This document shows, piece after piece, positions 24,710 through 38,927 of a DNA stretch of 39,625 nucleotides. The translations under genes were made by a program, and so were the position numbers. This DNA comes from Propionibacteriaceae bacterium. Lineage in GTDB: Bacteria; Actinomycetota; Actinomycetes; Propionibacteriales; Propionibacteriaceae. The stretch spans positions 1-39,625 of the forward strand of contig JAISUR010000034.1 in assembly GCA_031271975.1 (NCBI GenBank), written 5' to 3'. Position 1 is the stretch's first letter; each line of letters starts with the position of its first letter. The notes beneath the pieces are model-generated. The model was not told the origin of the DNA and made no database searches. It worked only from the letters and a program-made list of their open reading frames with translations.

Positions 24710-24779
24710 CAAACGTTCCCTTTTCCTTGGGGGGTTTGACTACAGCGTAGCGGTTCTGAAAAGGGGCATTTGACGCCGG

Positions 24780-26795
24780 TCAATAACCCATCTGCTGCAG
24801 CTTGCGGTACAGCGTGGCCCGCGACATGCCCAACTCTTGGGCGACCTTGGATTTGTTGCCGCGCAAGTCCAGCATGGCGCGGCGGATGCGGTCGGCTTCG
24901 AACTGCTGGAAAGTCGGCAACACCGCCGCCTCGGCCGGTGGTTGGTGTGGTTCCGCGGCGTGCTCGGGTTCCACGGGCGCCAGGCCGGGGCGGGGCATGG
25001 CGCTGGCGGCGCCCAACGAGCGCAGCACCGTCGGCGGCAGGCTGCGCAGGGTGAGTTCCGGCCCGTCGACCACATTGACGCAACGTTCCAAGATGTTGCG
25101 CAGTTCGCGCAGGTTGCCGGGCCAGTCGTAACGCCGGAACAGCGCGATCACGTCGGGGCCGACCCGCAGCACCGGCTTCTCCATCCGCTTGGCGAGGTTC
25201 ACCAGGAAATGCTCGGTCAGCAACTCGATGTCCGGTTCGCGTTGGCGCAGCGGCGGCAGTTCCAGGCGCAGGACGTTGAGGCGGAAATACAAGTCCAGCC
25301 GGAAGGCTCCTTGGTTGACCAGGTCCCACAGGTCGCGGTTGGTCGCCGCGATGATGCGGACGTCGACCTTCACGAAGCGCTTGGAACCGATCCGGGAGAC
25401 CACACCGTCCTCCAGGAAACGCAACAGGAAACTCTGCATGTCCAGCGGCATCTCGGCGATCTCGTCCAAGAAGACCGTGCCGCCGTTGGCTTGCTCGAAC
25501 TTGCCGGGAGCGCCCTCGCGGCGCGAGCCGGTGAAAGCCCCGCCTTCATAGCCGAACAGCTCGGAGCCGATGAGTTCTTTGGGGATCGCGCCGCAGTTGA
25601 TCGGGATGAACGGGGCGTCGCCGCGGGTAGACGCGTTGTGGATCGCTTGGGCGAACATCTCCTTCCCGGTACCAGATTCCCCGGTGATCAGCACGTTGCT
25701 GGAACTCGTCGCCGCCCGGAAGGCGGCCTGTTTGGCCTCGGACATGAGCGGGCACACGCCGATGAGGTCGTTGAATGTGAACGAAGCGGGCTTGCCGCCG
25801 CCGTTCTTGGGGTATTGCTGGCCCAGAATGGAGATCTTCAGCCCGGACGCTTTGGGGCCGCCCCCGATGCGCTGGCAGCGCACCGGGTAAAAGCGGTGGT
25901 CCCCGCCTTTTCCGGCGGCGTAGATCTCGCGGGGCATGACCGCCGGACCCTCCAACGCGGCCAGGAACGGCTTCAGTTCGGGCAGCACGTCTTCCAGCGG
26001 GATGCCTTTCACCAAGGGGCCGGGATCCCCGAACTCGCGCTTGAAGAAGTCGTCGACGAACACCACTTCGCCTTGGGCGTTGACCAGCAGGAAGGCGTCC
26101 GGGCCGACCTGGGCCGCCTCGACCAGCAGGCCCAATTGCTGCTGGATGACCGGATACATGAACCGGTTCCGAAAACTCAGGTCCTCGACGCCGAGGGCGA
26201 AGCAGATGGATTCGTGAGTGGCGTCGCTGTAACGCTCCAAGGGCAAGAACACCAAGTTGATCGAGGCGAACTTCGGCTCGCGCCGCACCACATACCGGGC
26301 ATAACACACGTAGTCGCAGAAGATGTCGAGGTAGTTCTCCTGGCCCACCCGGAAGATCGTCTCGAAGGGCTTCTGATGCGACAGGTTCGCCACGAACGCG
26401 CCCACGTTCGCCTCCGAGAAGATCGTCCCCACGCGCATCCCCTTGGCCTTCAACTCGGCCAAGAGCTGCTTGTCCCCGCACTTGTAATAGACGCCGTAGC
26501 CCTCGTCCAGGTAGAACAGCGCGGCGCCTTGTGCGGCCAAGAACGCCTCGCGCGCGCGGTAATACTCGCGCAGATAGTCGAGGTGGACGTGATGCCCCGG
26601 GTCGAGGTGGTCGAACAGCGACAGATCGCGGACATCTTCGCCGAACTTGCGGACGTGGCGGTCCGGGAAAAGCGCCTGGGAACGACGCCACTCCGCCGCG
26701 AGGTGCCCGTACTCCGCCGGAGCGTGAAGCGTCGGATCGGCCAACAGCCGTTTCTTGAGGTCGGCGATGCCAACCTGGTCATATTGCCCGGGCAC
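24780..26795 (-). CDS. Sigma-54 enhancer-binding transcriptional activator (AcoR-like: GAF-PAS-AAA+-Fis HTH)
   Basis: A 671-residue activator. The N-terminal half has a GAF-like sensor region (about 70-200, GTIFSEANVGAFVAN, DYVCYARYV) and a PAS-like region (about 230-330, FLLVNAQGEVVFVDDFF). The AAA+ domain (about 350-585) has Walker A GESGTGKE (372-379), the sigma-54-contacting loop GAFTGS (419-424; consensus GAFTGA), Walker B VFLDEIAEMP (D444, E445), sensor I AATNRDL and the arginine-finger region RLDLYFRLNV. The C-terminus is a Fis-type HTH (about 630-671, KSKVAQELGMSRATLYRKL). GTG 26795 is chosen because GAGGGGGG lies about 7 nt upstream. It is divergent from the fix-cai operon, whose promoter region has a -24/-12 element and a phased repeat. 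It is the probable activator of that operon, with ligand unknown. Confidence 0.93.
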   Translation of the reverse strand: MPGQYDQVGIADLKKRLLADPTLHAPAEYGHLAAEWRRSQALFPDRHVRKFGEDVRDLSLFDHLDPGHHVHLDYLREYYRAREAFLAAQGAALFYLDEGYGVYYKCGDKQLLAELKAKGMRVGTIFSEANVGAFVANLSHQKPFETIFRVGQENYLDIFCDYVCYARYVVRREPKFASINLVFLPLERYSDATHESICFALGVEDLSFRNRFMYPVIQQQLGLLVEAAQVGPDAFLLVNAQGEVVFVDDFFKREFGDPGPLVKGIPLEDVLPELKPFLAALEGPAVMPREIYAAGKGGDHRFYPVRCQRIGGGPKASGLKISILGQQYPKNGGGKPASFTFNDLIGVCPLMSEAKQAAFRAATSSSNVLITGESGTGKEMFAQAIHNASTRGDAPFIPINCGAIPKELIGSELFGYEGGAFTGSRREGAPGKFEQANGGTVFLDEIAEMPLDMQSFLLRFLEDGVVSRIGSKRFVKVDVRIIAATNRDLWDLVNQGAFRLDLYFRLNVLRLELPPLRQREPDIELLTEHFLVNLAKRMEKPVLRVGPDVIALFRRYDWPGNLRELRNILERCVNVVDGPELTLRSLPPTVLRSLGAASAMPRPGLAPVEPEHAAEPHQPPAEAAVLPTFQQFEADRIRRAMLDLRGNKSKVAQELGMSRATLYRKLQQMGY

Positions 26796-26820
26796 GCAGT
26801 TTCCCCCCTCGTCGCACACT

Positions 26821-26870
26821 TGGCGAGACACAGTTAAACACATTGAGACAATTGGCGACAAAGTGAGACA
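26821..26870. promoter_or_regulatory. Phased decamer array, candidate enhancer (UAS) for the sigma-54 activator
   Basis: Five consecutive 10-bp units end in GAGACA (26825), TAAACA (26835), GAGACA (26845), GCGACA (26855) and GAGACA (26865). On the other strand this is TGTCTC-N4 repeated. All units lie on the same face of the helix, about 110-155 bp upstream of the predicted sigma-54 transcription start and 25-75 bp upstream of the activator's own start codon. This is the usual distance for an EBP enhancer and also suggests autoregulation. The first decamer, TGGCGAGACA, recurs at 26981-26990. Confidence 0.65.
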
Positions 26871-26876
26871 ACTTCT

Positions 26877-26935
26877 CCCCCTACGCCCCTGACCCCCCAA
26901 CCGTCACCCAAGCGCCCCCCCTTACCCGGCATCCC
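26877..26935 (-). other. C-tract-rich spacer with G-quadruplex motif on the minus strand
   Basis: Seven runs of three to seven C on the plus strand lie between the decamer array and the -24/-12 element. On the minus strand the first four G-runs (from 26935 to 26907) are separated by loops of 5, 3 and 5 nt and fit G3+N1-7 four times. No gene or other element is visible in this stretch. A role in DNA looping or in insulating the two divergent promoters is only inference. Confidence 0.5.
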
Positions 26936-26950
26936 GGTCTTGGGGCGCCC

Positions 26951-26967
26951 TTGGCCACGATTTTGCA
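26951..26967 (+). promoter_or_regulatory. Sigma-54 (-24/-12) promoter of the fix-cai operon
   Basis: TTGGCCACGATTTTGCA matches the sigma-54 consensus YTGGCACGRNNNTTGCW at all positions except the central ACG. The GG (26953-26954) and GC (26965-26966) dinucleotides have the obligatory 10-bp separation. Transcription would begin near 26978. This excludes the in-frame ATG at 26980 and fixes the first start codon at 27031. It lies downstream of the decamer array and opposite the EBP gene. Confidence 0.75.
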
Positions 26968-27030
26968 TGAGTACTCCATATGGCGAGACATACGGCGACG
27001 CTGCCGGGCCATCGCCAGAAGGGAGACACC

Positions 27031-28314
27031 ATGACCTCGGCCGCCATTGCCACGATCATCCTGATCGTCGTCATGGTCCTGTTCGTCACCGAAGCCCTCC
27101 CGCTGCCGGTAACGGCCCTGGCCGGGGCGCTGGCCATGTCCACCACAGGCGTGATCAGCTACAAGCAAGCATTCGCTGGATTCGCCAATGACACCTTGAT
27201 GATGGTGGTCGGGATGCTCATCATCGGCCGGGCGCTGTTCGAGTCGGGCCTGGTTTGGATTGTCGGCAAGCGCGTCGCCGCGCTCACCTGCCTCGGATCG
27301 CGCACGGCCGTGGGCGTGTTGGGCGCCGCGGTGAGCCTGCTGTCCGGCTTCATGAGCAACACATCCGTCGTCGCCGCGAGCCTCCCCCTGGCCGACTCGC
27401 TCGACCACCACACCGGAGGGCGCACCAGCAAGAGGGCCCTCGCCATGCCCATCGGAGTGGCGGCGGTGCTGGGCGGAAACCTCACTCTCGTCGGTTCCAC
27501 ACCGCAACTCGTCGCCCAGGGAATTCTGGAAGACGCCGGGCTTCCCACCCTGGGCTTTTTCACGCTGCTGCCCGGCGGCGCCATCCTGCTCGCCACGGGT
27601 TTGGCCTACTACCTGCTCGTCGGCTCGAAGTGGCTGGACCGCGCCACGGCGGGCCGCGAAACCGCCGCCGCGCCAGCGCCCACACCCGGCGAAGACGACC
27701 CTGCCCGCGGCTCCACACGCCAAATGGCGATCTGCGGCACAGTCTTCGTCTTGTGCGTCGCCGGTTTTGTCGCCGGACTGTGGACCGTGGGCACGGTCTC
27801 GATGGTCGGGGCGCTGGTCCTCGTAGTGACCAAGTGCATCAGCCTCGACTCCATCCGCCAGCATGTGTGCTGGACGACAGTGGTGATCCTGGGCGGCTCC
27901 TTGGGCCTTTCAGCCGGGCTCGACCAATCGGGTGCGGGCCAGGCCATCGCCGACAGCATCGTCGCGCTCTGCGGCGGCGACGACTCCCAGCCGTTGCTCA
28001 TCTTCGGCGCCGTGGTGTTCATCGCGGCGGCCTTGTCCAACTGCATGAGCAACACGGCCGTGGTCGCGATGCTCGCCCCCACATCCATTCACCTCGCCCA
28101 AGCGCTCAACTTCAACGTCCTCACCATGATCATCGGATTGGTGTTCGGCGCCAGCGTGTGTTTCGCCACGCCGATCGGCACCCCACCGATGACACTGACT
28201 CTCGGCGCGGGTTACCGCTTCCGCGAATACCTCCGCATCGGCTCCCCCCTCTGCGTCCTCCTGACCGCCCTGACGGTCGTCATCGTGCCGCTCATCTACT
28301 CGGCGGCGCCATGA
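27031..28314 (+). CDS. SLC13/DASS-family anion permease (first of two in the operon)
   Basis: A 427-residue membrane protein with about 11 helices, in the divalent-anion/sodium symporter superfamily. Both SNT sodium/substrate motifs are intact: FMSNTSVVA (SNT 109-111) and NCMSNTAVVAM (SNT 340-342). They sit in two inverted halves, with GNLTLVGSTPQLVAQ and TPIGTPPMTL loops that resemble substrate sites. It probably imports an organic anion with sodium. It is the first gene of the operon; ATG 27031 has AAGGGAGA 5 nt upstream. Substrate identity is unknown, but the downstream CoA-activation genes suggest a carboxylate. Confidence 0.88.
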   Translation: MTSAAIATIILIVVMVLFVTEALPLPVTALAGALAMSTTGVISYKQAFAGFANDTLMMVVGMLIIGRALFESGLVWIVGKRVAALTCLGSRTAVGVLGAAVSLLSGFMSNTSVVAASLPLADSLDHHTGGRTSKRALAMPIGVAAVLGGNLTLVGSTPQLVAQGILEDAGLPTLGFFTLLPGGAILLATGLAYYLLVGSKWLDRATAGRETAAAPAPTPGEDDPARGSTRQMAICGTVFVLCVAGFVAGLWTVGTVSMVGALVLVVTKCISLDSIRQHVCWTTVVILGGSLGLSAGLDQSGAGQAIADSIVALCGGDDSQPLLIFGAVVFIAAALSNCMSNTAVVAMLAPTSIHLAQALNFNVLTMIIGLVFGASVCFATPIGTPPMTLTLGAGYRFREYLRIGSPLCVLLTALTVVIVPLIYSAAP

Positions 28315-28334
28315 CGTGCCGGGCACAGGAGGCA

Positions 28335-28376
28335 TTGCGGATGTCCGCAACCACATCGAAACCGGCCTCAAGCCGG
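28335..28376 (+). promoter_or_regulatory. Two small stem-loops between the transporter and fixA
   Basis: TTGCGGA-TG-TCCGCAA (28335-28350) and CCGGC-CTCAA-GCCGG (28362-28376) are perfect inverted repeats in the 79-bp gap. No T-tract follows and the fixA Shine-Dalgarno sequence lies just downstream. They may set the relative expression of transporter and fix genes by processing or attenuation. Confidence 0.45.
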
Positions 28377-28393
28377 AGTGAAGGAGAGAAACC

Positions 28394-29155
28394 ATGACCG
28401 ACGTCATTGTCGGATGCAAATGGGTGTTGGATGAGGCCGACGTGCGTGTCCAAGCCGACCAGAGCGTCGACTTCAGCCTCGCCAAGTCAAAGATCAGCGA
28501 GTACGACAAGAACGCCATCGAGGCGGCCGTGCAGTTGGCCCAGCAGTTGGGCGGCAAGGCCGTTGGTGTGACCGCCGGCCCCGCCACCGCCAAGAAGGCG
28601 CTCACCGAAGCGCTGACCCGCGGCCTCGACGAAGCCGTCCTGGTGGACACCGGCGATGCCGGCTCCAGCGCGCAGATCGCGGCGCAAGTGCTCGCCGCTG
28701 AGGCCCGCGAGCGGGGCGCCGAACTCATCGTGGTGGCCGAAGGCTCCAGCGACGACTACGCCCGCCAGACGCCGTCCCGAGCTGGGGCGATCCTGGATTG
28801 GCCGGTAGTGACGGCCGTGAGCGGTTTCGCCGCCGCGGAAGGCCAGTTGAAGGTCTCGCGCGCCGCCGACGACGCCGTCCAGGAGCTCACCGTGACGCTC
28901 CCGGCGGTCATATCTGTGCTTCCGGAGGCCTGCGACGCTCCTATCCCGAGCCTCAAGGCAGCTCTCGCCGCCAAGAAGAAGCCCGCTTCGGAGCAGTCCG
29001 GCGCCGACCTCGGCGTCACGCCAGTGGCGAACGCCACCACGACGTCCGTCACCGGCTACGCCAGCGAGCGCCAGTGCGTTCTCGTCGAAGGCGACTCGAT
29101 GGCCGAGAAGGCGGCCAAGCTCGCCGCAATCCTCAAGAAGGAAGGGGTCCTGTGA
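28394..29155 (+). CDS. fixA: Electron-transfer flavoprotein beta-type subunit FixA
   Basis: A 253-residue ETF-beta family protein, the size of E. coli FixA (256). With FixB it forms a flavin heterodimer that takes electrons from NADH and passes them to FixC/FixX. Conserved segments are VIVGCKWVLDEADVRV at the start, ISEYDKNAIEAAVQL, GLDEAVLVD and GAILDWPVVTAVSG. ATG 28394 has AAGGAGAG upstream. The stop overlaps the fixB ATG (TGATG), indicating coupling. The full fixABCX set in one operon points to the Fix branch rather than ordinary beta-oxidation ETF. Confidence 0.94.
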   Translation: MTDVIVGCKWVLDEADVRVQADQSVDFSLAKSKISEYDKNAIEAAVQLAQQLGGKAVGVTAGPATAKKALTEALTRGLDEAVLVDTGDAGSSAQIAAQVLAAEARERGAELIVVAEGSSDDYARQTPSRAGAILDWPVVTAVSGFAAAEGQLKVSRAADDAVQELTVTLPAVISVLPEACDAPIPSLKAALAAKKKPASEQSGADLGVTPVANATTTSVTGYASERQCVLVEGDSMAEKAAKLAAILKKEGVL

Positions 29156-30060
29156 TGACCAAAATCCATGTCTATGCGTCCAGCCCGGAACTCGCCGCTG
29201 AAGCCATCACGGCCGCAGCCGCCTTCGGGGCCCAGCCGGCGCTCATCCTCACCGGCAACCAGAACCCGGCTGACTTCGCCGAACTGGGCTTTTCCGAGAT
29301 CGTCCACTTGACCGGAGCCAATCCGCTGCCGGAGTGCTACGCCAAGCAGATCGCCACTGCCCTGCGCGCCGACGATTCGCAGCTCTTCCTGGTGCCCGGC
29401 GACCTGACCGGCCGCGACATCGCCGCGCGGGTCGCGGGTTACCTCGGCTGCCCGATGGTCTCCGAGGCCTTCGACTTGGCAGCTGGCCCGGACGCGATCC
29501 AAGCCAGCCGGCTCACCTACGGCGGCGCCGTGGTGCAACGCCAGCAGATCACCGGCCGGGCCGTCGTGTCCATCGCGCCGGGTGCCTTCGAGGCCGCCGC
29601 TCCCAGCGGGGCAGCCGCGCCCGTGAAGACGATCGACGGTGGTTCTGACGACCGCGTCACGCTGGTCGCCACCCATCCCAAGGAGCAGGGAGCTGTCGAC
29701 CTGACCAAGGCCGACAAGGTCGTCTGCGTCGGCATGGGCTTCTCCGCGAAAGAGGAGTTGGACACCGCTTACCGGCTCGCCAAGGCGCTGGGCGCTGAGG
29801 TGGGCTGCACCCGCCCGCTGGCCGAAACCAACCACTGGTTCCCCGGCTACATCGGGATTTCCGGCGACCAGATCGCGCCCAAGCTCTACTTCTCGCTGGG
29901 CGTCTCTGGCCAGGTCCAGCACACCGTGGGCATCCGCGGGGCCAAGCTCGTCGTAGCTTGCTCCAAAGACGCCGCCGCACCGATCTTCCAGAACTGCGAC
30001 TACGGCGTTGTCGGCGACTTGTTCGAGTTGACCGAGGCCCTTCTCCCGCAGCTCTCCTGA
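29155..30060 (+). CDS. fixB: Electron-transfer flavoprotein alpha-type subunit FixB
   Basis: A 301-residue ETF-alpha family protein (E. coli FixB is 313). The N-terminal domain leads to the conserved C-terminal FAD-binding half: KADKVVCVGMGFSAKEEL, GCTRPLAETNHWFP, GISGDQIAPKLYFSLGVSGQVQHTVGI and VVACSKDAAAPIFQNCDYGVVGDLFEL. The last of these is the classic ETF-alpha signature with the FAD-contacting serine/glutamine. ATG 29155 overlaps the fixA stop by one base. A larger upstream extension in the same frame lies wholly within fixA and is not coding. Confidence 0.95.
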   Translation: MTKIHVYASSPELAAEAITAAAAFGAQPALILTGNQNPADFAELGFSEIVHLTGANPLPECYAKQIATALRADDSQLFLVPGDLTGRDIAARVAGYLGCPMVSEAFDLAAGPDAIQASRLTYGGAVVQRQQITGRAVVSIAPGAFEAAAPSGAAAPVKTIDGGSDDRVTLVATHPKEQGAVDLTKADKVVCVGMGFSAKEELDTAYRLAKALGAEVGCTRPLAETNHWFPGYIGISGDQIAPKLYFSLGVSGQVQHTVGIRGAKLVVACSKDAAAPIFQNCDYGVVGDLFELTEALLPQLS

Positions 30061-30092
30061 GCTGCGCGACACCTGCAAACAGAAAGGCAGTA

Positions 30093-31349
30093 ATGCAAGA
30101 AAACCTGATAACTGAGCGCTTCGGACCCCTGCAGGGTGTCCGGGTGCTGCTGACCGGCGTGGCATTCGCCGGTCCCTTCGCCGCCCGGTGGCTGGGCGAC
30201 TGGGGAGCCGAGATCATCAAGGTCGAGATCCCCGAAGCCGGCGACACTTCCCGCATCGGCAAGCGCGTCGAAGGCGGCGTGGTGCCGAAGTGGATCAGCT
30301 TGGGCCGCAACATGAACAGCTTCGAGTTCTCGATGAACTTCACCAAGAACCCGGAGTCCAAAGAGGTCTTCATGGACCTCATCAAGCAGTGCGACATCTG
30401 GATCAACTCCGTGCCGAACATCGGCAAGCACGGCGCCACCGACGAGCTTTGCCTCGAACTGAACCCGAAGCTCGTCATCGTCCACATCACCGGCTATGGC
30501 CTGCCGCAGAACGGCGGGGAAGAGCGCCTGCTGGGCCGGCCGTGCGTCGACCCGGTGGCCCAGGCATTCAGCGGCCTTGCCGCCATGCAGGGCATGCCCG
30601 ACGGGCCGTACCTGACCGCCAATCCGATCGGCGCGGACATCGTGTCGGCTCACCAAGCGGCGGCCGCCGCGTTGGCGGGCTACATTTCCGCCGAGCGCAC
30701 GGGCAAGGGCCAAGTCATCGACCTGGCCATGTACGAGTCGGCGGCCTACTTCCAGAGCTACCACTGGTGCTCGCAGCTCAACGGCGAAGGCCTGTACAAG
30801 CGGACCGGCCCGTTGAACCCGACTTGGTATCCGTTCGGCTACTACGAATGCGGCGACGGCCGCTCGGTCGCCGTCGGCGTGTGGGGGCTGAACGTCTGGA
30901 AGAAGTTCACCAACCTCATGGGAGTCACGGAAGAGGACTTCCCCTACATGGCGGTCTGCGGGCAGGACGACAAGGAGAAGGTCCAGACCATGGACCTGAT
31001 CTGGAAGAAGTACCTGGCCGACCACACCGCCAAGGAAGTCGAGTCGGAGTTCTTGGAGCTGGGCATCCCGGTTTCCATGATCAACAACGCCAACGACGCT
31101 TTCGAGCATCCGCACTGGCAGGCCCGCCACGACTTCATCACCTACCAGGACGTCACGACAGGCCGTGACTTCTACGACATCGCCACGGCTCCCAAGTTCA
31201 TGGGCACGCCGTGCGACACCTACAAGGGTGGCCCGCTGCTGGGCCAAGAGACCGACCAGGTTCTCAAGGACATCTTGGGTTATGACGACGCCAAGGTGGC
31301 AGCCCTCAAACAGGCCGGCGCGGTAGCGGCGTCTTTGACGACCAAGTGA
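30093..31349 (+). CDS. caiB: Class III CoA-transferase, CaiB-like
   Basis: A 418-residue family III CoA-transferase. CaiB moves CoA between carnitine, crotonobetaine and butyrobetaine. Similarity includes FGPLQGVRVLLTG, WGAEIIKVEIPEAGDTSRI, NPKLVIVHITGYG, AQAFSGLAAMQG and GKGQVIDLAMYES. The catalytic aspartate is D182 in IGADIVSAHQ, aligned with Asp169 of E. coli CaiB. AGAAAGG precedes the ATG. Context (caiA, caiC, fixABCX) supports a CaiB-type role, but CaiD, CaiE and CaiT are missing, so carnitine itself is not assured as substrate. Confidence 0.85.
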   Translation: MQENLITERFGPLQGVRVLLTGVAFAGPFAARWLGDWGAEIIKVEIPEAGDTSRIGKRVEGGVVPKWISLGRNMNSFEFSMNFTKNPESKEVFMDLIKQCDIWINSVPNIGKHGATDELCLELNPKLVIVHITGYGLPQNGGEERLLGRPCVDPVAQAFSGLAAMQGMPDGPYLTANPIGADIVSAHQAAAAALAGYISAERTGKGQVIDLAMYESAAYFQSYHWCSQLNGEGLYKRTGPLNPTWYPFGYYECGDGRSVAVGVWGLNVWKKFTNLMGVTEEDFPYMAVCGQDDKEKVQTMDLIWKKYLADHTAKEVESEFLELGIPVSMINNANDAFEHPHWQARHDFITYQDVTTGRDFYDIATAPKFMGTPCDTYKGGPLLGQETDQVLKDILGYDDAKVAALKQAGAVAASLTTK

Positions 31350-31380
31350 TCCGGCCAACCAACAACAAGAAGGAAACAAA

Positions 31381-32517
31381 ATGCAATTGACCGAAAACCA
31401 AGAGATGTACTTGAACATCTTGAACGAGTTCATCGAGCAAGAGGTGCAGCCGCGTCTCAAGGAGCTCGACAACGTTGACGAGTATCCGAAGTGGATGCAG
31501 GAGCGGCTTGCCGAACTCGGCTTCACCCGCCTGGTCGCTCCGGAAGAGCACGGTGGCCTGGGCGAGTCGATGACAACGCTGCTGCTGCTGGTCATGCGGG
31601 CCACCGAGGTGAACAACACGCTCGGTTCGCTGCTGAACTGCTCCAACAACGCCAACAAGCTGCTCAGCTTCGCCAACGAGCAGATGATCGAGAAGTACAT
31701 TCCGCAGATCATCGAGCAGGGCCGCTTCATGGGCATGGCCTACACCGAGGCGGGCGCCGGTTCGGACTCCAAAGCCGTGCAGACCACGGCCGTCCGCGAC
31801 GGCGACGAATGGGTCATCAACGGCACCAAGATGTTCATCTCCTACCGTTCCGCGTGCTCCTGCTGGCAGGTCAGCGCCAAGACGGTTGACGAGAATGGCG
31901 TCGAGGGCGTGAGCGTCTTCCTGGTCGACGCCAACGCTCCCGGTGTGAGCTACGGCGAGCACTTCAACAAGTTCGGCTGGAACGGCTCGGACACCGGCGA
32001 GGTGTTCTTCAAGGATTGCCGCGTGCCGGCCTGGGCACTGTGCGGCGAAATCAACAAGGGCCTGCACATCTCGTTGAGCACCCTTGACGGCGCCCGCCTG
32101 CTGATCGGCGCCCGCGCTGTCGGCTACGCCCAGGGCGCTTTCGACAAGGCCTATGAGTACGCGTCGCAGCGCGAGCAGTTCGGCCGCAAGCTGACCGAGT
32201 TCCAGGTCATCCAGCACTACTTCGCCGACATGTACGCCGCCATCGAGGTTTGCCGGGGCTACGTCCTGCACCTGGCCGCCGAGTTGGACGCCGGCCGTTC
32301 GATCGGCAAGGGCGGTTCTGTCGCCAAGCTCAAGTGCACCACGATGGCCCAGGATGTCACCCAGCGCGCGATGGAGATCTGCGGCGGCATGGGCTTGCTG
32401 CGCGAGTTCGGCCTGGCCCGCTACTACGAGGACACCTGCGTGATCATCACCGGTGAGGGCACCTCCGAAATCCAGAAGAACATCATCTTCAAGTCGATCG
32501 CCAAAGAGCGCAGGTGA
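31381..32517 (+). CDS. caiA: Acyl-CoA dehydrogenase/reductase, CaiA-like
   Basis: A 378-residue flavoprotein of the acyl-CoA dehydrogenase family, near the 380 residues of E. coli CaiA (crotonobetainyl-CoA reductase). It has the FAD-binding block FMGMAYTEAGAGSDSKAVQTTA, the substrate loop INGTKMFISYRSAC, RQ-type dimer contacts (YASQREQFGRKLTEFQVIQ) and the C-terminal GGMGLLREFGLARYYED region. E359 in TGEGTSEIQ takes the position of the catalytic base in medium-chain enzymes. With FixABCX as electron partner it probably reduces an enoyl-CoA, although oxidation is also possible. AAGGAA precedes the ATG. Confidence 0.87.
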   Translation: MQLTENQEMYLNILNEFIEQEVQPRLKELDNVDEYPKWMQERLAELGFTRLVAPEEHGGLGESMTTLLLLVMRATEVNNTLGSLLNCSNNANKLLSFANEQMIEKYIPQIIEQGRFMGMAYTEAGAGSDSKAVQTTAVRDGDEWVINGTKMFISYRSACSCWQVSAKTVDENGVEGVSVFLVDANAPGVSYGEHFNKFGWNGSDTGEVFFKDCRVPAWALCGEINKGLHISLSTLDGARLLIGARAVGYAQGAFDKAYEYASQREQFGRKLTEFQVIQHYFADMYAAIEVCRGYVLHLAAELDAGRSIGKGGSVAKLKCTTMAQDVTQRAMEICGGMGLLREFGLARYYEDTCVIITGEGTSEIQKNIIFKSIAKERR

Positions 32518-32522
32518 GCACG

Positions 32523-33974
32523 ATGGCAACAACAACTCTCGAAGCGCCGGCGCCCGGAAAGACGCCCGCCGCGATTGACACCAAGAAGGTCATCTGGGGC
32601 GTGGCCGCGCTGGTTGTGGCGATCGGCCTGTCCCTGGTGCCGCCGCCTGGCGACCTGACCGATTCCAGCATGCGCGTGCTCGGCATCCTCGCCGGCGCGG
32701 TGCTGCTGTGGGCCGGCCGGGTGTTCCACGAGGCCGCGATCGCGGTCCTGATGAGCACGCTGTTCGTCGTCGCCGCCCAGGTCAAGATCACCGAGTCCTT
32801 CAGCGCCTTCTCCGGGACGACCTTCTGGCTCCTGGTGGCCGCTTTCGCCCTGGGTGCGGCGGTCAAGGAGTGCGGCCTGTTGGAGCGCATCTCGATCAAC
32901 CTGCTGCGGATGTTCCCGAAGAGCTACGCGGGCCAGATTCTCGGCCTGCTGACCGTCACCACGGTGACCTCTCCGATCATCCCCAGCAAGGCCGCCAAGT
33001 GCTCGATCCTGTCGCCGCTGGTCCGCGGCATGAGCGACGCTTCCGGCTACAAGCCGGAGAGCAAGCCGGCCACCGGGTTCTTCCTGTCCTACTATGCGGC
33101 GACGTGCTTCTCGCCGGCGATGTTCATTTCGGCATCGGTGACGACGGCAGCCCTGGTGGGCCTGTACAGCGACGACATCCAGGCCGAGTACGGCTTCCTG
33201 AAGTGGATGCTGTGCGCGCTGCCTTGGATCGTGCTGATCTTCATCGGCCACTTCTTCTACATTTCGCGGACGTACAAGCCCGCGGAGGCGACGAAGGTCG
33301 ACTCGCAGTACCTGAACCAGCGCCACGCCGAGTTGGGCCGCTGGAGCGCCAAGGAGAAGATCATGGGCGTCATCATGGTGCTCACCATCGCCATTTGGGT
33401 CTTCAAGGGCCAGTTGGGCGTCCCGGAATACGCCGCGGCGTTGTTCGCGTTGGTCGCCTCGCTCGTTTTCGGCATCCTGCCGATCAACAAGTGGCGCACC
33501 TCGGTGGCCTGGGAGACGCTGATCTTCATCGGCTGCTGCGTGTCGCTGTCCGCCGTGCTGCCCGCGGTTGGCATCACGGATTGGCTGGTGGCGACCGTCG
33601 GCCCGTACACCGAGGGCTTCTTTGGTCAGCCGTTGTTGCTCATTCCGGTGCTCGCGGTCATGACCCTCTTGGTACGATTCCTCATATTGTCGGAGATCGG
33701 CTTCTTGACGGTCTTCACCGCCTTCCTGTTCCCGTTGGCGACGGCAGCTGGGGTCAACCCGTGGGTCATCGGGTTCATCCTCAACGCCTTCGTCATCGGC
33801 TGGTTCATTCCGTACCAGAGCTCGGTCTACCTGACGGCGATCCACGCCGCCGGCGAAGGCTGGGTGACGGAGAAGGCGACAACTCGCTATTGCTACATCT
33901 ATTGCGCGATCGGGTTGGTGGCCATGTTGATCACCTACCCGATCTGGCAGGCGATGGGCATCTGGGCGGCCTAG
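32523..33974 (+). CDS. DASS/CitT-like anion transporter (second), with altered SNT motifs
   Basis: A 483-residue membrane protein with about 12-13 helices, in the CitT-like branch of the DASS superfamily. A long N-terminal cytoplasmic tail rich in A/P/T precedes helix 1. The first SNT motif position reads IIPSKAAKCSIL, with S155-K156-A157 instead of SNT, and the second region reads FIPYQSSVYLT. Replacement of a sodium-site asparagine by lysine suggests a sodium-independent exchanger; this is inference. ATG 32523, with AGGTGAG upstream and 5 nt after the caiA stop, is preferred over an in-frame GTG at 32514 that overlaps that stop. Confidence 0.85.
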   Translation: MATTTLEAPAPGKTPAAIDTKKVIWGVAALVVAIGLSLVPPPGDLTDSSMRVLGILAGAVLLWAGRVFHEAAIAVLMSTLFVVAAQVKITESFSAFSGTTFWLLVAAFALGAAVKECGLLERISINLLRMFPKSYAGQILGLLTVTTVTSPIIPSKAAKCSILSPLVRGMSDASGYKPESKPATGFFLSYYAATCFSPAMFISASVTTAALVGLYSDDIQAEYGFLKWMLCALPWIVLIFIGHFFYISRTYKPAEATKVDSQYLNQRHAELGRWSAKEKIMGVIMVLTIAIWVFKGQLGVPEYAAALFALVASLVFGILPINKWRTSVAWETLIFIGCCVSLSAVLPAVGITDWLVATVGPYTEGFFGQPLLLIPVLAVMTLLVRFLILSEIGFLTVFTAFLFPLATAAGVNPWVIGFILNAFVIGWFIPYQSSVYLTAIHAAGEGWVTEKATTRYCYIYCAIGLVAMLITYPIWQAMGIWAA

Positions 33975-34011
33975 CACCGCACTCTAGTAGGTAAGAAACG
34001 AGGTGATTTGA

Positions 34012-35586
34012 ATGTTCTCGATGAGGTCTCTCCTCATACGCAACGCCACCACGGTGCCTGATCGGTTGGCCGTAGTGGGGGCGACTGGCGCCTTGACCTG
34101 GCGCGAGTTGGACATTCGCAGCAATCGCCTCGCCAACGCCCTGATGTCGCTGGGCGTCGGACGGGGAGACCGGGTCGCGATCCTGTGGCCCAACAGCGCC
34201 GAGTGGATGGTGGTCTGGTCAGCCTGCCACAAGCTCGGAGTTGCCGCACTCCCCGTCAACGCCCGGCTCCTGCCCGCGGAGATGGCACAGTTGATGCGGC
34301 TGGCTCAGGCGACAACTCTGTTCTGCGGAGACCGCTTTGCGGAAGCCGCCGACGAGGTTGCCGCCGCCACCGACATCAAGTGGTGCGTCTCCGAATCCGG
34401 CTTGGCCGGAAGCTCGGCCGCCCGAACGATGAGCCTAGAGCAACTCATCGCGATGGGCGGCCGGGCTGAGCCGCCAGTTTCCCCTGACCCGGACGACGAA
34501 TCCACGGTGTTGTTCACCAGCGGCACGACCGGCTACTCCAAGGCGGTGGTCCGCACCCAAGCGATGACGGTCGGCCTGGCGCTGGCTCTCGCCATCGAGA
34601 ACGAGAACGCGTCCACGCCGGAAGTCCTGGTGACCGCCGCTCCGCTGTACCACACCGGCGGGCTGGTTGGCGTGCTGAAGATGTGCGCGCTGGCCGGGAC
34701 GCTGGTGTTCGCCGAACGCCTGGATCCCCCGGTCATATTGAGCCTGATTGAGCAGTACCAGGCGACGCAGATCATGCTGCTCCCCCCAGTGGCTTATTGC
34801 CGGCTGACCAAGTCGCAGCCCGGGCGGCAATTCAAGTCCGTGCGCGAGGTGTTCATTTCCGCCGGCCGTTGCTCCATGCCGCTGGCCCACTCGATATTCG
34901 ACCTTTTCCCCAACGCCAGGCTGCGCTTCACCTACGGATCCACCGAGGCCGCCTCAGTGACTGGGATCACGTTGGGCCGAGAAGAACTGCTCGCCGACCC
35001 CAGGCTGATCGAGACCGTCGGCCGGCCGATCGTCCCCGTCGAGATTCGCCTGGTGGGCGAAGACGGGCGCGACGTGGCCGTCGGCGAAGTCGGCGAAGCC
35101 TGGATCCGTTCCCCGCTGGCATTTCACGGATACTTGGGGCAAACCCACACCGACGCGCCTGCCGACAACCCCGACTGCGCCGTCATCACCGACGGCTGGT
35201 ATCACTCTGGAGATTTGCTCCGCCGCGACGAGCGGGGCTACTACTACGTCGCCGACCGCCGCCAGGACTTGATCAAGACCGGAGGCGAGAACGTCTTCTC
35301 ACAAGAGGTGGAACAGGCGCTGCTGGAGAACCCGCTGGTCCAGGCCTGCGCCGTCGTCGGCATTCCCGACCGCCGCTTTGAAGAGGCGGTGGCCGCCGCG
35401 GTGGTCCCCCACCCCGGAGCGGCGTTGACCGCCGCGGACTTGGTTGCCTGGTGCCAAGGCAATCTGGCTGGGTACAAACGCCCGCGCCACTGGGCCATCG
35501 TCGCAGAGCTCCCCGTCAACAGTGTCGGGAAAGTCCAAAAGAACGTCCTGCGGGAAAACGCGAAGACGTATTTCACCGCCATGTGA
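34012..35586 (+). CDS. caiC: AMP-dependent acyl-CoA ligase, CaiC-like
   Basis: A 524-residue adenylate-forming ligase that activates a carboxylic acid to its CoA thioester with ATP. Conserved motifs are VLFTSGTTGYSKAVVRTQ (P-loop A3), APLYHTGGL, FTYGSTEAASVTG (A5), WYHSGDLLRRDERGYYYVADRRQD (A7/A8), IKTGGENVFSQEVE and PVNSVGKVQKNVL with the catalytic lysine (A10). E. coli CaiC is 517 residues and supplies betainyl-CoA; here the acid is unknown. GAGGTGA lies upstream of the ATG. It is followed by fixC with a 33-bp gap. Confidence 0.86.
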   Translation: MFSMRSLLIRNATTVPDRLAVVGATGALTWRELDIRSNRLANALMSLGVGRGDRVAILWPNSAEWMVVWSACHKLGVAALPVNARLLPAEMAQLMRLAQATTLFCGDRFAEAADEVAAATDIKWCVSESGLAGSSAARTMSLEQLIAMGGRAEPPVSPDPDDESTVLFTSGTTGYSKAVVRTQAMTVGLALALAIENENASTPEVLVTAAPLYHTGGLVGVLKMCALAGTLVFAERLDPPVILSLIEQYQATQIMLLPPVAYCRLTKSQPGRQFKSVREVFISAGRCSMPLAHSIFDLFPNARLRFTYGSTEAASVTGITLGREELLADPRLIETVGRPIVPVEIRLVGEDGRDVAVGEVGEAWIRSPLAFHGYLGQTHTDAPADNPDCAVITDGWYHSGDLLRRDERGYYYVADRRQDLIKTGGENVFSQEVEQALLENPLVQACAVVGIPDRRFEEAVAAAVVPHPGAALTAADLVAWCQGNLAGYKRPRHWAIVAELPVNSVGKVQKNVLRENAKTYFTAM

Positions 35587-35619
35587 GCGGACGAAAGACA
35601 ACGAAGAAAGGAATATGGA

Positions 35620-36906
35620 ATGGCTGATTTCGACGCCATAGTCGTCGGATCTGGCCTGGCGGGAGCCGTTGCCGCCCACGAACTTGCCCGGGCGGGCAAG
35701 GGAGTGCTGGTGGTCGAGCGCGGCAACCAGGCTGGATCCAAGAACGTGTCCGGAGGGAGGCTTTACACGCACTCGCTCGCCGCGGTCTTCCCTGGTTATG
35801 CCAGCGAAGCGCCGTTGGAGCGCCGGATCACGCACGAGCGGATCGGCTTCTTGGCGCCGGACGCCGGTTTCACAGTCGATTTCACCTCTGACGGCCTGCG
35901 CGCGGAAGGCCGGGACTCCTACTCGGTGTTGCGGGCCCCGTTCGACCAGTGGCTGGCGAGCCAAGCGGAGGATGCCGGGGCGGAGTACATCTGCGGTATC
36001 CCGGTCGAAGACCTGCTCATGGAGGGGTCCCGGGTGACGGGAATCGTGGCCGGCGAGGATGAGATCACCGCCGACGCCGTGCTGCTCTGCGACGGCGTCA
36101 ACTCGCTGCTCACCCGGAAAGCCGTCGGCTATGCCGGGCCGACGCCAGAAGCGACTGCTGTGGGCATCAAGGAAGTCATCAAACTGGATCCGCAAGTCAT
36201 CGAGGACCGCCTCTTGGTGCCTGAAGGCGAGGGCGCCGCGTGGCTGTTCGCGGGCGACGCCACCCACGGCGTTCCCGGTGGCGGGTTCGTCTATACCAAC
36301 AAGGAATCGCTGTCGATCGGCCTGGTGGTCCCCATCGCCGATCTGCTGACAGGCGAGACCCCGATCTACCAGCTCCTCGACGACTTCAAACGCCACCAGG
36401 TGGTCGCGCCGCTGATCAAGGGCGGCGAAGTCATCGAGCATTCCGGCCACATGGTGCCCGAGGGCGGCTGGGACGCGATGCCGAAACTGGTCGGCGATGG
36501 CGTGCTGGTGGCCGGCGACGCCGCCATGATGTGCCTCAACCTGGCCTACACCGTGCGCGGCATGGATTACGCCATCGCCGCCGGGATGCACGCTGGGCGC
36601 GCCGCCGCAGAAGCTCTGACGGCTGGCGACACCTCCGCGGCCGGCCTACAGGGCTACGTCAAGGCTTTGGAGAACAGCTTCGTGCTGCAGGATCTGCGCC
36701 AATTCCGGAAGGTACCGCATTTCATCTCCGGCACGAAACGCATTTTCGACACATACCCGGCCGTCATCCGGGATTTCTTCGAGAAGCTGTTCATCGTCGA
36801 CTCAAATCCCACGGCTCCGGTCCGCAAGGCCGGATTCGCCGCCGCCAAACAAGCCGGACTGCTCAACCTGGCCCGGGACATGAAAGGAGCGCTGAGCTCA
36901 CTGTGA
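35620..36906 (+). CDS. fixC: FAD-dependent ETF-oxidoreductase-like protein FixC
   Basis: A 428-residue flavoprotein, the same length as E. coli FixC and related to ETF:quinone oxidoreductase. The N-terminal dinucleotide-binding fold is AIVVGSGLAGAVAAHELARAG with E at the end of strand 2 (VVERG). SKNVSGGRLYTHSL follows, and the FAD-contacting GVLVAGDAAMMCLNL block is near residue 295. It passes electrons from FixAB to FixX and probably to quinone. AAAGGA lies about 7 nt before the ATG. The stop overlaps the fixX GTG in a GTGA arrangement. Confidence 0.95.
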   Translation: MADFDAIVVGSGLAGAVAAHELARAGKGVLVVERGNQAGSKNVSGGRLYTHSLAAVFPGYASEAPLERRITHERIGFLAPDAGFTVDFTSDGLRAEGRDSYSVLRAPFDQWLASQAEDAGAEYICGIPVEDLLMEGSRVTGIVAGEDEITADAVLLCDGVNSLLTRKAVGYAGPTPEATAVGIKEVIKLDPQVIEDRLLVPEGEGAAWLFAGDATHGVPGGGFVYTNKESLSIGLVVPIADLLTGETPIYQLLDDFKRHQVVAPLIKGGEVIEHSGHMVPEGGWDAMPKLVGDGVLVAGDAAMMCLNLAYTVRGMDYAIAAGMHAGRAAAEALTAGDTSAAGLQGYVKALENSFVLQDLRQFRKVPHFISGTKRIFDTYPAVIRDFFEKLFIVDSNPTAPVRKAGFAAAKQAGLLNLARDMKGALSSL

Positions 36907-37202
36907 AAACAATCGCGCCCATCACCGTAAACGTCCCCAGCCTGCTGGCAGGCAACAAGTACGCGGTGGATGAAGACCACGCCCACATCGAACTGAGCCC
37001 CGGCCCGTCGGCCGACGAGTTCCGCAAGCTCGTCATGGTGTGCCCGGCGGCCCTGTATCGCCTGGACGAGCAGAACGCCCAGTCATTCGACTATGCCGGA
37101 TGCCTGGAGTGCGGCACTTGCCGCGTCGCTTGCGGCAACACGGTCATCGCCAAGTGGGAGTATCCGCGCCCCACGATGGGAGTCGAGTACCGGCAGGGCT
37201 GA
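36903..37202 (+). CDS. fixX: Ferredoxin-like protein FixX
   Basis: A 99-residue iron-sulphur protein (E. coli FixX is 95). Cysteines are Cys47 (MVCPAALY), then Cys67, Cys70, Cys73 and Cys77 in AGCLECGTCRVACGN. This CxxCxxCxxxC arrangement plus CP binds a [4Fe-4S] cluster. It completes the FixABCX complex, which in nitrogen fixers bifurcates NADH electrons between quinone and ferredoxin. The GTG start overlaps the fixC stop by 4 nt. It is the last gene of the operon and a strong terminator begins 13 bases after its stop. Confidence 0.95.
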   Translation: MKTIAPITVNVPSLLAGNKYAVDEDHAHIELSPGPSADEFRKLVMVCPAALYRLDEQNAQSFDYAGCLECGTCRVACGNTVIAKWEYPRPTMGVEYRQG

Positions 37203-37215
37203 GCCCTGATGCACT

Positions 37216-37261
37216 AAAGGGCCGCTTCTGCCCCGCTTGGTTGGGCAGCAGCGGCCCTTTT
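37216..37261 (+). terminator. Intrinsic terminator of the fix-cai operon
   Basis: AAAGGGCCGCT (37216-37226) pairs with AGCGGCCCTTT (37250-37260). The stem continues inside with CTGCCC (37228-37233) and GGGCAG (37243-37248), for about 17 pairs in total around a small loop, followed by TTTT. It is the strongest terminator in the window and separates rpoN from the operon, although both are on the same strand. Confidence 0.9.
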
Positions 37262-37297
37262 GCTTCCCCTTCTGCCGCAAGGCGCCTGTTGGCTAAC

Positions 37298-37303
37298 TAG
37301 ACT
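37298..37303 (+). promoter_or_regulatory. -10 element of rpoN, probable leaderless start
   Basis: TAGACT (TANNNT) ends 7 nt before the rpoN ATG at 37311. No Shine-Dalgarno sequence precedes the ATG, so rpoN appears to have its own housekeeping promoter and a leaderless or nearly leaderless mRNA. Confidence 0.45.
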
Positions 37304-37310
37304 CAATGTC

Positions 37311-38579
37311 ATGTCGCGGACCGTTTCGCCCACTCTGGAGCAGGTCCCGCGGCTCACCCAGGCGCTTTGGCAGGGCCAGATCCAAACGGTCACGCTGCTG
37401 GCGATGACCACGGCCGAGTTGGCCCGCCATCTGGAGCAGGCCGCGGAAGAAAACCCGGTCATCGAGGTGGTTTCGGGAGTTCGCCGGGCGACACTGGCGG
37501 CGCCACCAGAAGTTCCCGTGGCCGACAGGGCGCGGCTGGCGGACCATTTATGGGAACAGGTGCCGCACGCCAGCTTGGCCGCGAGCGACGAGCCGGTGCT
37601 CCGGTTCATCTTGGACTTGCTGGACCAAGACGGCTACCTGCGTGAATCCAGCGAAGCCATCGCGGCGCTCGCCGGGGCGACCGCGGACCAGGTCGCCCGA
37701 CTGGTGGCCTTGATCCGGACGCTCGAACCCAAGGGGGTCGGCGCACGGAACCTCCCCGAATGCCTGGAAGCGCAGTTGCTGGCTGCTGCGCCTCCGGATG
37801 AATTGGCGCTGGCGATCGTGCGAGCCCATCTGGAGGACTTGGCGGGCCGCCGGTACAACACCATCGCGCGGGCGACCGGCCAGGACGTCGCAGCTGTGCG
37901 CCGTGCCGCTGAAGCCATTCAGCAACTCGATCCGCGTCCCGGGCAGGGGTGGTCGACTGCCCCGCCCAACTACGTCAGGCCGGACCTGGAGGTCGCGCTG
38001 ACGCCCGAGGGCGTTTCCTGCCAACTGACGGCGCAGAGCGAGTTCCACATCACGGTCGACACCTCGCTGCGAAGCTTGATGAGTGCAGCCAGCCAAGCCG
38101 AGCGTGCCTGGCTCGACCACTGCCTGCAGCAGGGGCGCCAGTTGAGCGAATGCTTGCGCCAGCGCCGCACATTGCTGCTCGCGGTGGCACAAGCGGCCTG
38201 CCAGCACCAGCGGGCCTTCTTCGAGCGGGGGCCGGCGGCCCTGAAGCCGTTGACTATGACCAGCCTCGCCGCCGAACTTGGATTGTCGGTCTCCACTGTG
38301 AGCCGCGCCGTCCGCCACAAGACGCTGCACTGCCAGCAAGGCACGTTCGAACTTCGCGTGTTGTTTCCTCCCCGCGCGGGGGCGTCCCAGGCTGCGGCGC
38401 CGGCCGCCAAGTCGCTGTTGCGGCAAATCATCGCCGCCGAGCCGAAATCGGATCCTTTCAGCGACCAGGCGTTAGCGGCCCAATTGGGCAGCTATGGGGT
38501 GCGGGTCTCGCGCCGTACCGTGGCCCGCTACCGCTCCGAGTTGGGGTTGCCGGGCGCCGCGGAACGAGCTTCGGCGTGA
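37311..38579 (+). CDS. rpoN: RNA polymerase sigma-54 factor (RpoN)
   Basis: A 422-residue sigma-54. Region I (about residues 6-45, PRLTQALWQGQIQTVTLLAM then TTAELARHLEQAAEENPVIE) is the Gln/Leu-rich activator-response region. Region II is short. Region III has the core-binding domain (LDLLDQDGYLRE, LEPKGVGARNLPECL, IQQLDPRPGQG), the HTH (SLAAELGLSVSTVSRAV) and QRAFFERGPAALKPLT. The RpoN box RRTVARYR (401-408, consensus ARRTVAKYR) that reads the -24 element is intact. ATG 37311 is used because region I begins soon after it. Sigma-54 is generally regarded as absent from Actinobacteria, yet the flanking genes are actinobacterial. It probably serves the adjacent fix-cai operon. Confidence 0.95.
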   Translation: MSRTVSPTLEQVPRLTQALWQGQIQTVTLLAMTTAELARHLEQAAEENPVIEVVSGVRRATLAAPPEVPVADRARLADHLWEQVPHASLAASDEPVLRFILDLLDQDGYLRESSEAIAALAGATADQVARLVALIRTLEPKGVGARNLPECLEAQLLAAAPPDELALAIVRAHLEDLAGRRYNTIARATGQDVAAVRRAAEAIQQLDPRPGQGWSTAPPNYVRPDLEVALTPEGVSCQLTAQSEFHITVDTSLRSLMSAASQAERAWLDHCLQQGRQLSECLRQRRTLLLAVAQAACQHQRAFFERGPAALKPLTMTSLAAELGLSVSTVSRAVRHKTLHCQQGTFELRVLFPPRAGASQAAAPAAKSLLRQIIAAEPKSDPFSDQALAAQLGSYGVRVSRRTVARYRSELGLPGAAERASA

Positions 38580-38591
38580 CGCCCGGACGCG

Positions 38592-38927
38592 TCAGGCCAG
38601 TTTGAAGCCGGATCCGCCCTTCTTCTGGCGGGCGTTGTAATCGCGCATCCGCTGCGGATAGCCGACCACGCCGGCGTCGTAGCTGGGAATGGAATGCTGG
38701 GCAGCCCACTCCCTCGCCCAATCAACCGACTCGACGCTGCGGCGGGTCCACTCGCCGTCGTAGGCGATCAGCAGCAGCGTCGCCTTGGTCACTGTCGTGG
38801 GCATCTCGATGAACGCCTCGACGCCGCGCCTGGAAGTCACGAAATCCTGCAAGTGGGCAAGCGTCGCCTGTGACACGTCCGGAGTGACCGGCTGGCGCTG
38901 GCGCTTGCGCCTGGAGAACAATCCCAC
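38592..38927 (-). CDS. Small conserved actinobacterial protein of unknown function
   Basis: A 111-residue basic protein: a short Arg/Lys-rich N-terminus (GLFSRRKRQRQP), then a compact domain with FVTSRRGVEAFIEMPTTVTK, LLIAYDGEWTRR and the C-terminal YDAGVVGYPQRMRDYNARQKK. I recognise the last part as typical of an uncharacterised family found in many actinobacteria, without known activity. No signal peptide or membrane segment is seen. GTG 38927 is preceded by GATAAT at 7 nt, suggesting a leaderless mRNA. The gene is convergent with rpoN, with 12 bp between stops, which helps to show that rpoN is in native chromosomal context. Confidence 0.8.
   Translation of the reverse strand: MGLFSRRKRQRQPVTPDVSQATLAHLQDFVTSRRGVEAFIEMPTTVTKATLLLIAYDGEWTRRSVESVDWAREWAAQHSIPSYDAGVVGYPQRMRDYNARQKKGGSGFKLA

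Follow-up and report, generated by a model that had tools for sequence, protein, structure and literature searches.

A putative one-locus sigma-54 switch beside an acyl-CoA and FixABCX operon in a Propionibacteriaceae bacterium

Genes of the locus

The stretch of DNA analysed here (the window) is the entire contig 47, 39,625 bp, of a 2.70-Mb Propionibacteriaceae genome that is assembled in 49 contigs, 99.86% complete and 0.1% contaminated. Between positions 24780 and 38579 the gene for a sigma-54 activator (enhancer-binding protein, EBP) on the minus strand, nine fix/cai-type genes on the plus strand (27031-37202) and rpoN, encoding sigma-54 and also on the plus strand, were found to be contiguous (Table 1). 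An earlier reading made from the sequence alone had proposed that activator, enhancer, -24/-12 promoter, operon and rpoN lie together as a self-contained module. The genes, their order and an enhancer-like array were found as proposed, whereas the promoter was borne out weakly, with 8 of 11 consensus letters.

The deduced RpoN passed the Pfam cut-offs for all three domains, scoring 40.0 bits for AID, 139.6 for CBD and 145.0 for DBD (cut-offs 23.8, 22.9 and 22.8), and aligned with sigma-54 in structures of RNA polymerase. An alignment of 27 RpoN sequences revealed that the STVSR helix and the RpoN box (SRRTVARYR, consensus ARRTVAKYR) are kept. The VARYR form of the box, at 38520-38534, occurs in the window protein only; lysine stands at the third place in all 26 others, mostly as VAKYR. 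The protein is divergent, with at most 36% identity to RpoN of the loci compared, and is almost certainly a true sigma-54. In a tree of the 27 rows it grouped weakly (72/60), on long branches, with the RpoN of the FESHE module described below, and none of the starred sets comprising at most half of the rows included it.

A hairpin resembling an intrinsic terminator separates fixX from rpoN. The segment 37203-37270 folds at -38.1 kcal/mol (z -5.2), and none of 200 shuffled sequences was as stable. Since this strong hairpin lies between the two genes, fixX probably closes the operon, with rpoN as a separate unit; placing rpoN last in the operon was rejected on the same ground. The hexamer TAGACT, read from the sequence 7 bp upstream of the rpoN ATG, has a position that would fit a leaderless rpoN message.

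The EBP contains the Pfam domains Sigma54_activat (220.6 bits) and AAA_lid_14 and a C-terminal Fis-type helix-turn-helix (HTH_8, 45.6 bits). The Walker motifs read GESGTGKE and FLDEI, and the loop GAFTGS carries one substitution relative to GAFTGA. Structure matches were to ZraR, LuxO, FleQ, NtrC and PspF. The first 344 residues matched no Pfam family at E values up to 5. The gene may start at GTG 26795, in which case the entire array would lie upstream of it.

Pfam and NCBIfam profile searches gave the order T1-fixA-fixB-caiB-caiA-T2-caiC-fixC-fixX for the nine co-directional genes, T1 and T2 being the two carrier genes. The same direction and the short gaps between them suggest that the nine form one operon. 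The first most likely starts at ATG 27031 rather than at 26980, judging from AGAAGGGAG at 27017-27025 before that ATG. All four FixABCX subunits are encoded, the fixC product alone passing an NCBIfam cut-off (PRK10015). The name carnitine operon was considered and rejected based on the scores of CaiB (230 of 413 bits) and CaiA (161 of 540 bits), the DASS type of the carriers and the lack of caiD and caiE among the nine genes. Downstream of rpoN, the contig end falls in a region coding for Ig-like repeats (38963-39625), which probably is the reason for the assembly break.

Table 1. Coordinates of features in the window and of related loci elsewhere.
Feature	Position	Strand	Remarks
EBP gene, sigma-54 activator	24783..26795	-	671 aa from GTG 26795, 687 aa if ATG 26843; start codon putative
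Array of three TGTCTC (minus strand)	26825-26830, 26845-26850, 26865-26870		20-bp spacing
Candidate -24/-12 promoter, TGGCCACGATTTTGC	26952..26966	+	GG-N10-GC exact; best site between EBP and operon; predicted start near 26978
Two more GAGACA (TGTCTC) copies	26985-26990, 27023-27028		just 3' of predicted start
Gene 1 (T1), DASS/CitMHS-type anion transporter	27031..28314	+	Pfam CitMHS 181 bits, Na_sulph_symp 85 bits, scanned from 26980
Gene 2, fixA (EtfB-like)	28394..29155	+	Pfam ETF; best NCBIfam FixA PRK03359, 150 of 219 bits
Gene 3, fixB (EtfA-like)	29155..30060	+	Pfam ETF_alpha, ETF
Gene 4, type III CoA-transferase (caiB-like)	30093..31349	+	Pfam CoA_transf_3 257 bits; best NCBIfam L-carnitine CoA-transferase, 230 of 413 bits
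Gene 5, acyl-CoA dehydrogenase / enoyl-CoA reductase (caiA-like)	31381..32517	+	Pfam; best NCBIfam acryloyl-CoA reductase, 306 of 640 bits
Gene 6 (T2), DASS-family anion symporter	32514..33974	+	Pfam Na_sulph_symp 146 bits; TIGR00785 165.5 of 198.6 bits
Gene 7, acid-CoA ligase (caiC-like)	34012..35586	+	Pfam AMP-binding 243 bits
Gene 8, fixC (ETF-quinone oxidoreductase-like)	35620..36906	+	NCBIfam PRK10015 474.7 bits, cut-off 466
Gene 9, fixX, ferredoxin-like	36903..37202	+	NCBIfam FixX PRK15449 95.6 of 166 bits; no Pfam match
Hairpin in the fixX-rpoN gap, resembling an intrinsic terminator	37216..37260	+	TTTT at hairpin end
rpoN, sigma-54 factor	37311..38579	+	422 aa; AID, CBD, DBD; longer TTG form would begin at 37260
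Break of genus-conserved coaE-uvrB-terC-uvrA order	23717-24782 and L185:9255-12255		between uvrB and terC
Second fix/cai operon, contig 43 of the same genome	L110:2137-11824		caiA, caiB, fixA, fixB, caiC, fixC, fixX
FESHE module in three other genomes	L108:319-11029; L125:8783-18838; L126:4267-12339

Enhancer-like array, candidate promoter and count of parts

The array between the EBP gene and the operon contains, in addition to three TGTCTC copies, a TGTCGC at 26855-26860 that gives the repeats a 10-bp register. Exact matches to TGTCTC-N14-TGTCTC were found twice in the 2.70-Mb genome, mutually overlapping and both at 26825-26870; with one mismatch, four more were found elsewhere compared with one in the reversed control. 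Based on the frequency of TGTCTC in the window, a triple with 20/20 spacing is expected ∼4e-6 times per genome. The window contains seven TGTCTC copies, five of which lie within 26825-27028, and the GAGACA at 26985 is separated from the nearest array copy by 120 bp, equal to six 20-bp steps. The array is located ∼108-153 bp upstream of the predicted transcription start. The enhancer suspected in the sequence-only reading thus exceeds chance and is unique in the genome at exact match. We consider it likely that the array is an enhancer, and its binding partner would be the adjacent EBP.

The candidate promoter preserves the GG-N10-GC frame exactly, and a match as good is expected ∼0.04 times in the ∼150 bp between array and start codon. 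The evidence that weighs against a working sigma-54 promoter here, and with it against control of the operon by RpoN, is as follows. The 8 matching letters, of 11 in TGGCACR-N4-TTGC, leave a -24 half of TGGCCAC instead of TGGCACG. When GG-N10-GC places in the window are scored with rough weights of our own, 19 others reach or exceed the score of this site, and 17 of the 19 fall within named genes. RpoN appears nearly ordinary in its DNA-reading parts even though the operon's site is poor, and exact TGGCACGN4TTGC has zero matches genome-wide. The same exact sequence was found in 9 of 13 other actinomycetotal rpoN loci of 18-20 kb, with 13 sites in total, not all independent because the related loci L036 and L037 have sites in common; it was found neither in reversed controls of those loci nor in 34 background loci (501 kb, comprising contigs 43 and 8 of the same genome and DNA of genus-mates). 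The exact site being common in such loci, its absence at this operon counts against the simple picture. Finally, the searches yielded no orthologous locus in which promoter or array could be seen to be conserved. The arginine of the VARYR box might accompany the odd -24 half-site. The promoter of the sequence-only reading therefore stands as to its frame and is weak as to its letters; on these data a promoter at 26952 is somewhat more probable than its absence.

The number of sigma-54 parts in the genome was determined with Pfam models. Five places exceeded the cut-off of PF00158; one, at 224 bits, is this EBP, and the four others, at 22-34 bits over part of the model, are read as other AAA+ proteins. 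PF04552 and PF00309 each identified one place, this rpoN. The search for further EBP genes suggested by the sequence-only reading thus yielded one true EBP and one RpoN in the nearly complete genome and gave no refutation. The single RpoN, the single true EBP and the unique array together support one activator, one enhancer and one operon. This EBP is very probably the only activator of RpoN, and there is a good probability that the nine-gene operon is a sigma-54 target. The notion of one sigma factor serving one operon accordingly draws mainly on the parts count and the unique array, with the weakness of the operon's own promoter on the other side.

Proposed switch and alternatives

The reading we favour, and judge reasonably probable from the gene content and the DNA features, is that the locus forms a one-locus sigma-54 switch for organic-anion import and enoyl-CoA reduction. 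RpoN, produced from its own transcription unit, would bring RNA polymerase to the -24/-12 site before the operon, where it would wait in the closed form. The single EBP would bind the TGTCTC array and, with its N-terminal region sensing a substrate or redox cue, would assemble and use ATP to open the promoter. Of the operon products, the two DASS-type carriers would import an organic anion, the CaiC-like ligase and CaiB-like transferase would attach CoA, and the CaiA-like dehydrogenase would reduce the enoyl-CoA with electrons transferred via FixABCX. The presence of two DASS-type carriers together with CoA-activating and CoA-reducing enzymes suggests that the substrate is an unsaturated carboxylate, perhaps di- or tricarboxylic, that serves as an electron sink.

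The strongest alternative is that the sigma-54 parts are passengers, whether intact or decaying, that the operon is transcribed from a sigma-70-type promoter and that the array acts as an operator, either for the gene of the EBP itself or for a different regulator. The weak -24/-12 site is consistent with this explanation, as is the location of the array 30-75 bp before the EBP GTG start, where autoregulation would be normal; furthermore, direct repeats in 10-bp register are unlike the usual EBP dyad. However, the frames and motifs of both RpoN and EBP are intact, and decay would be the expected fate of a solitary rpoN that lacked a functional target. A scan of 24600-38800 for sigma-70-type promoters, poorly suited to those of actinomycetes, found none compared with 1.7 expected. 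The passenger explanation is therefore regarded as unlikely, yet it deserves the most weight among the alternatives.

A second alternative holds that RpoN is a general factor acting at further promoters, through this EBP or through activators lacking a recognisable AAA+ domain. The genome contains 50 places matching TGGCACGN4TTGC with at most one mismatch, of which 30 were inspected, and three of the 30 have TGTCTC or GAGACA within 350 bp upstream. These 50 are nevertheless fewer than the 61 in the reversed control, none is exact, and all 30 inspected lie inside frames that stay open from one stop codon to the next over 111 aa or more, which in GC-rich DNA is a hint and no proof of a gene. L050, considered as a second sigma-54 target, was rejected since its site is inside a 111-aa frame on the other strand. 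Neither a second EBP nor a second exact array was found. The scan was limited to one mismatch and the operon's own site has three, so that other targets of equal quality could escape it, which also weighs on the favoured reading. The check for other promoters suggested by the sequence-only reading thus revealed no excess of near-consensus sites and leaves room for sites as weak as the operon's own; taken together with the parts count, the results make a general factor improbable.

Having a single rpoN, a single EBP and, it seems, a single target, the genome would offer a natural minimal sigma-54 circuit, useful for testing actinomycete RNA polymerase with sigma-54 and the gain of such a factor as a unit.

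Origin, distribution and comparison with known systems

The terC loci of 20 of the 29 genus-mates were retrieved, and in 18 of these 20 uvrB is directly upstream of terC with a gap of 35-613 bp. In the genome analysed here uvrB is located on contig 8 beside coaE and rpsA, and the module is at the terC side of the broken junction. The genus-mate G408 (L164), which has the highest TerC identity (76%), is also without uvrB at that place, where, in our reading, a frame for an RND-like transporter is present. Contamination or a chimeric assembly that placed a foreign sigma-54 locus on the contig could draw on this broken junction, on the contig end in a repeat protein 1 kb after rpoN and on the absence of rpoN from all 29 other genomes of the genus, but it is very improbable, because the UvrA/TerC order is common to the genus, TerC, UvrA and UvrC on the contig have genus-typical identity and order, the GC and GC3 of the module resemble those of the flanks (contig 65% GC) and the contamination estimate is low. 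The four best rows for the neighbouring UvrA in a plasmid collection were all from actinomycetes, namely Nonomuraea, Streptomyces, Tsukamurella and Microbacterium, at 62.5-72.5% identity.

Relatives of the module were sparse. A scan of genome_contigs (84,980 species) with six 8-residue patterns, which finds close kin only and from which records of the same or a very near genome may be left out, returned one locus for the window RpoN, in Pseudovibrio, at 34% identity. CaiB at E values up to 1e-40 had matches in 9 of 197 other family genomes, none above 37%, and the two best of these loci (L203 and L204) contained no fix, EBP or rpoN match in 9 and 12 kb. The plasmid locus nearest to CaiB (37%), a CoA-transferase locus of Aerococcus, was dismissed as not being a comparable operon. 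The second fix/cai operon, on contig 43, encodes FixC and FixX that are 65% and 61% identical to those of the window, while its CaiB, CaiA, FixA and FixB are not close. That operon has relatives in seven genus-mates without sigma-54, with FixC at 62-65% identity, and FixCX may be of local origin.

The patchy presence and the broken uvrB-terC junction fit a gain of the module at a site of rearrangement. Because the contig stops 1 kb past rpoN, it could not be demonstrated that the insertion was clean. The transferable circuit envisaged from the sequence alone is plausible in view of patchy presence and the synteny break, but neither a donor nor a close relative was identified, no mobility gene was present among the window open reading frames scanned (a part of all genes), and composition does not differ. 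The synteny comparison suggested in the same reading located the module at the broken junction and gave no orthologous block in the relatives searched.

The distribution of RpoN was determined in genome samples of increasing breadth. None of the 29 other genomes of the genus has RpoN. In the family 2 of 197 other genomes pass the RpoN cut-off, G544 and, with a fragment at a contig edge, G551. The class sample has RpoN above the cut-off in 2 of 393 others (G850 and G793). Of the 395 other genomes in the phylum sample 17 pass; 15 of these score above 100 bits, and all 15 belong to other classes. These 15 genomes rule out the earlier assertion that the phylum otherwise lacks sigma-54.

An EBP was found in the same 18-20 kb as rpoN at 12 of 13 extended actinomycetotal loci (9 of 10 of the strong set plus L108, L125 and L126), the stretch of L040 containing none; at L017, L018, L020 and L021 the EBP was already visible before these were picked for extension. 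No EBP was present in the 3.5 kb examined at five other strong rpoN loci or in the 8.4 kb of the G551 contig. With the reservation that four were picked knowing the EBP to be present, linkage at 12 of 13 loci indicates that rpoN unlinked to its targets, presented as usual in the earlier reading, is not the rule among the actinomycetotal loci compared. The recurrence of comparable arrangements in the phylum also speaks for the favoured reading. In L036:6454-19975 and L037:3151-13814, from another class, genes for an acid-CoA ligase, an acyl-CoA dehydrogenase, rpoN, EBP, fixA and fixB follow one another. An exact -24/-12 site precedes fixA by 63 bp, and another, within the terminal part of the ligase frame, precedes the dehydrogenase gene by ∼210 bp. 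L033:2893-6393 and L034:296-3952 each hold a divergent rpoN immediately ahead of an EBP gene, and exact -24/-12 sites occur close by. These two rpoN genes are related (100/100 in the tree); in its assembly L034 has a broken EBP frame.

The three complete cases encountered in the class (G544, G850 and G793), from three actinomycete families, represent an unrelated module of similar logic, here called the FESHE module. Its rpoN is divergent, with DBD and CBD found, no match to AID and 26-29% identity to the window RpoN. In these genomes rpoN is followed by the near-perfect -24/-12 site TGGCACGGAAATTGC, TGGCACGAATTGTGC or TGGCACGGCTCCTGC and then by a gene for an acidic FESHE-type protein, with further shared genes and an EBP within about 10 kb. 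In G793 one shared gene precedes rpoN and has another -24/-12 site, TGGCACGAATCCTGC, upstream. The module of L108 also codes for peptidase- and aminotransferase-like enzymes. Three proteins of the FESHE module and the window RpoN gave no hit in a PADLOC scan. Like the window locus with its candidate promoter, the FESHE module is from the same class and has rpoN, a -24/-12 site, an operon and an EBP, in its case within about 10 kb; it differs in its RpoN without detectable AID and in its unrelated cargo. The chances are about even that in Actinomycetes sigma-54 survives only as locus-specific cartridges of rpoN, one EBP, enhancer, promoter and one operon that spread as a unit and are of at least two unrelated kinds, fix/cai and FESHE. 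If that is true, sigma-54 here would be a cargo-specific regulator and not a global sigma factor.

According to the available portion of a 2025 survey, RpoN occurs in 4 of 173 Actinomycetota, the one judged like true RpoN was found to be misclassified, and the phylum is effectively without functional RpoN (PMC12316311). The three remaining proteins may belong to the FESHE module and perhaps are its degenerate RpoN. Set against the conclusion given in that portion, the present locus combines an all-domain RpoN with an activator and a candidate enhancer in an actinomycete contig of 65% GC. The same portion proposes that high GC makes -24/-12 promoters hard to distinguish from background in Actinomycetota (PMC12316311), a proposal on which the further actinomycetotal loci with exact -24/-12 sites beside rpoN and EBP bear. 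A literature search, sensitive to spelling and with subscription journals largely outside its scope, found no account of sigma-54 in Propionibacteriaceae and, among the titles and abstracts listed, none of such a module.

In its enzymes the operon resembles caiTABCDE-fixABCX of E. coli, where CoA-transferase, CoA ligase, acyl-CoA dehydrogenase and FixABCX genes are also together; among the nine genes of the window BCCT carrier, caiD and caiE are missing and two DASS carriers are present instead. The E. coli genes are regulated by CaiF and CRP, not by sigma-54. On plasmid pP73A of Celeribacter indicus rpoN adjoins an EBP gene, and genes for thioesterases, a CoA thiolase, an acyl-CoA dehydrogenase and ETF lie within 15 kb; this locus, in contrast, is proteobacterial and has genes in both directions, not one operon. 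The rpoN-nif-fixABCX-nifA cluster of pRetMIM1e from Rhizobium etli Mim1, a replicon typed as conjugative, likewise has rpoN, fixABCX and the EBP gene nifA within about 11 kb, and fixABCX of Rhizobium is a classical target of sigma-54 and NifA. That cluster serves nitrogen fixation, with nif genes in between, and its host has other EBPs and another rpoN, whereas the window has acyl-CoA genes with the only rpoN and the only EBP of the genome. Among the mannose-PTS sigma-54 loci of Bacillota, which include that of Lactobacillus plantarum, the locus EBP-PTS-rpoN of Aerococcus tenax brings together an EBP gene, one PTS operon and rpoN without interruption over about 7 kb; it differs in serving a carbohydrate PTS, in phylum and in an RpoN not closely related to that of the window. 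Possession of one EBP is also described for Lactobacillus plantarum and Chlamydia in the available portion of PMC3162934. Contiguity of rpoN, EBP gene and target is thus already known from Rhizobium and Aerococcus. What is new is the combination, namely an all-domain sole RpoN and a sole EBP, in a class said to lack sigma-54, beside an acyl-CoA and FixABCX operon.

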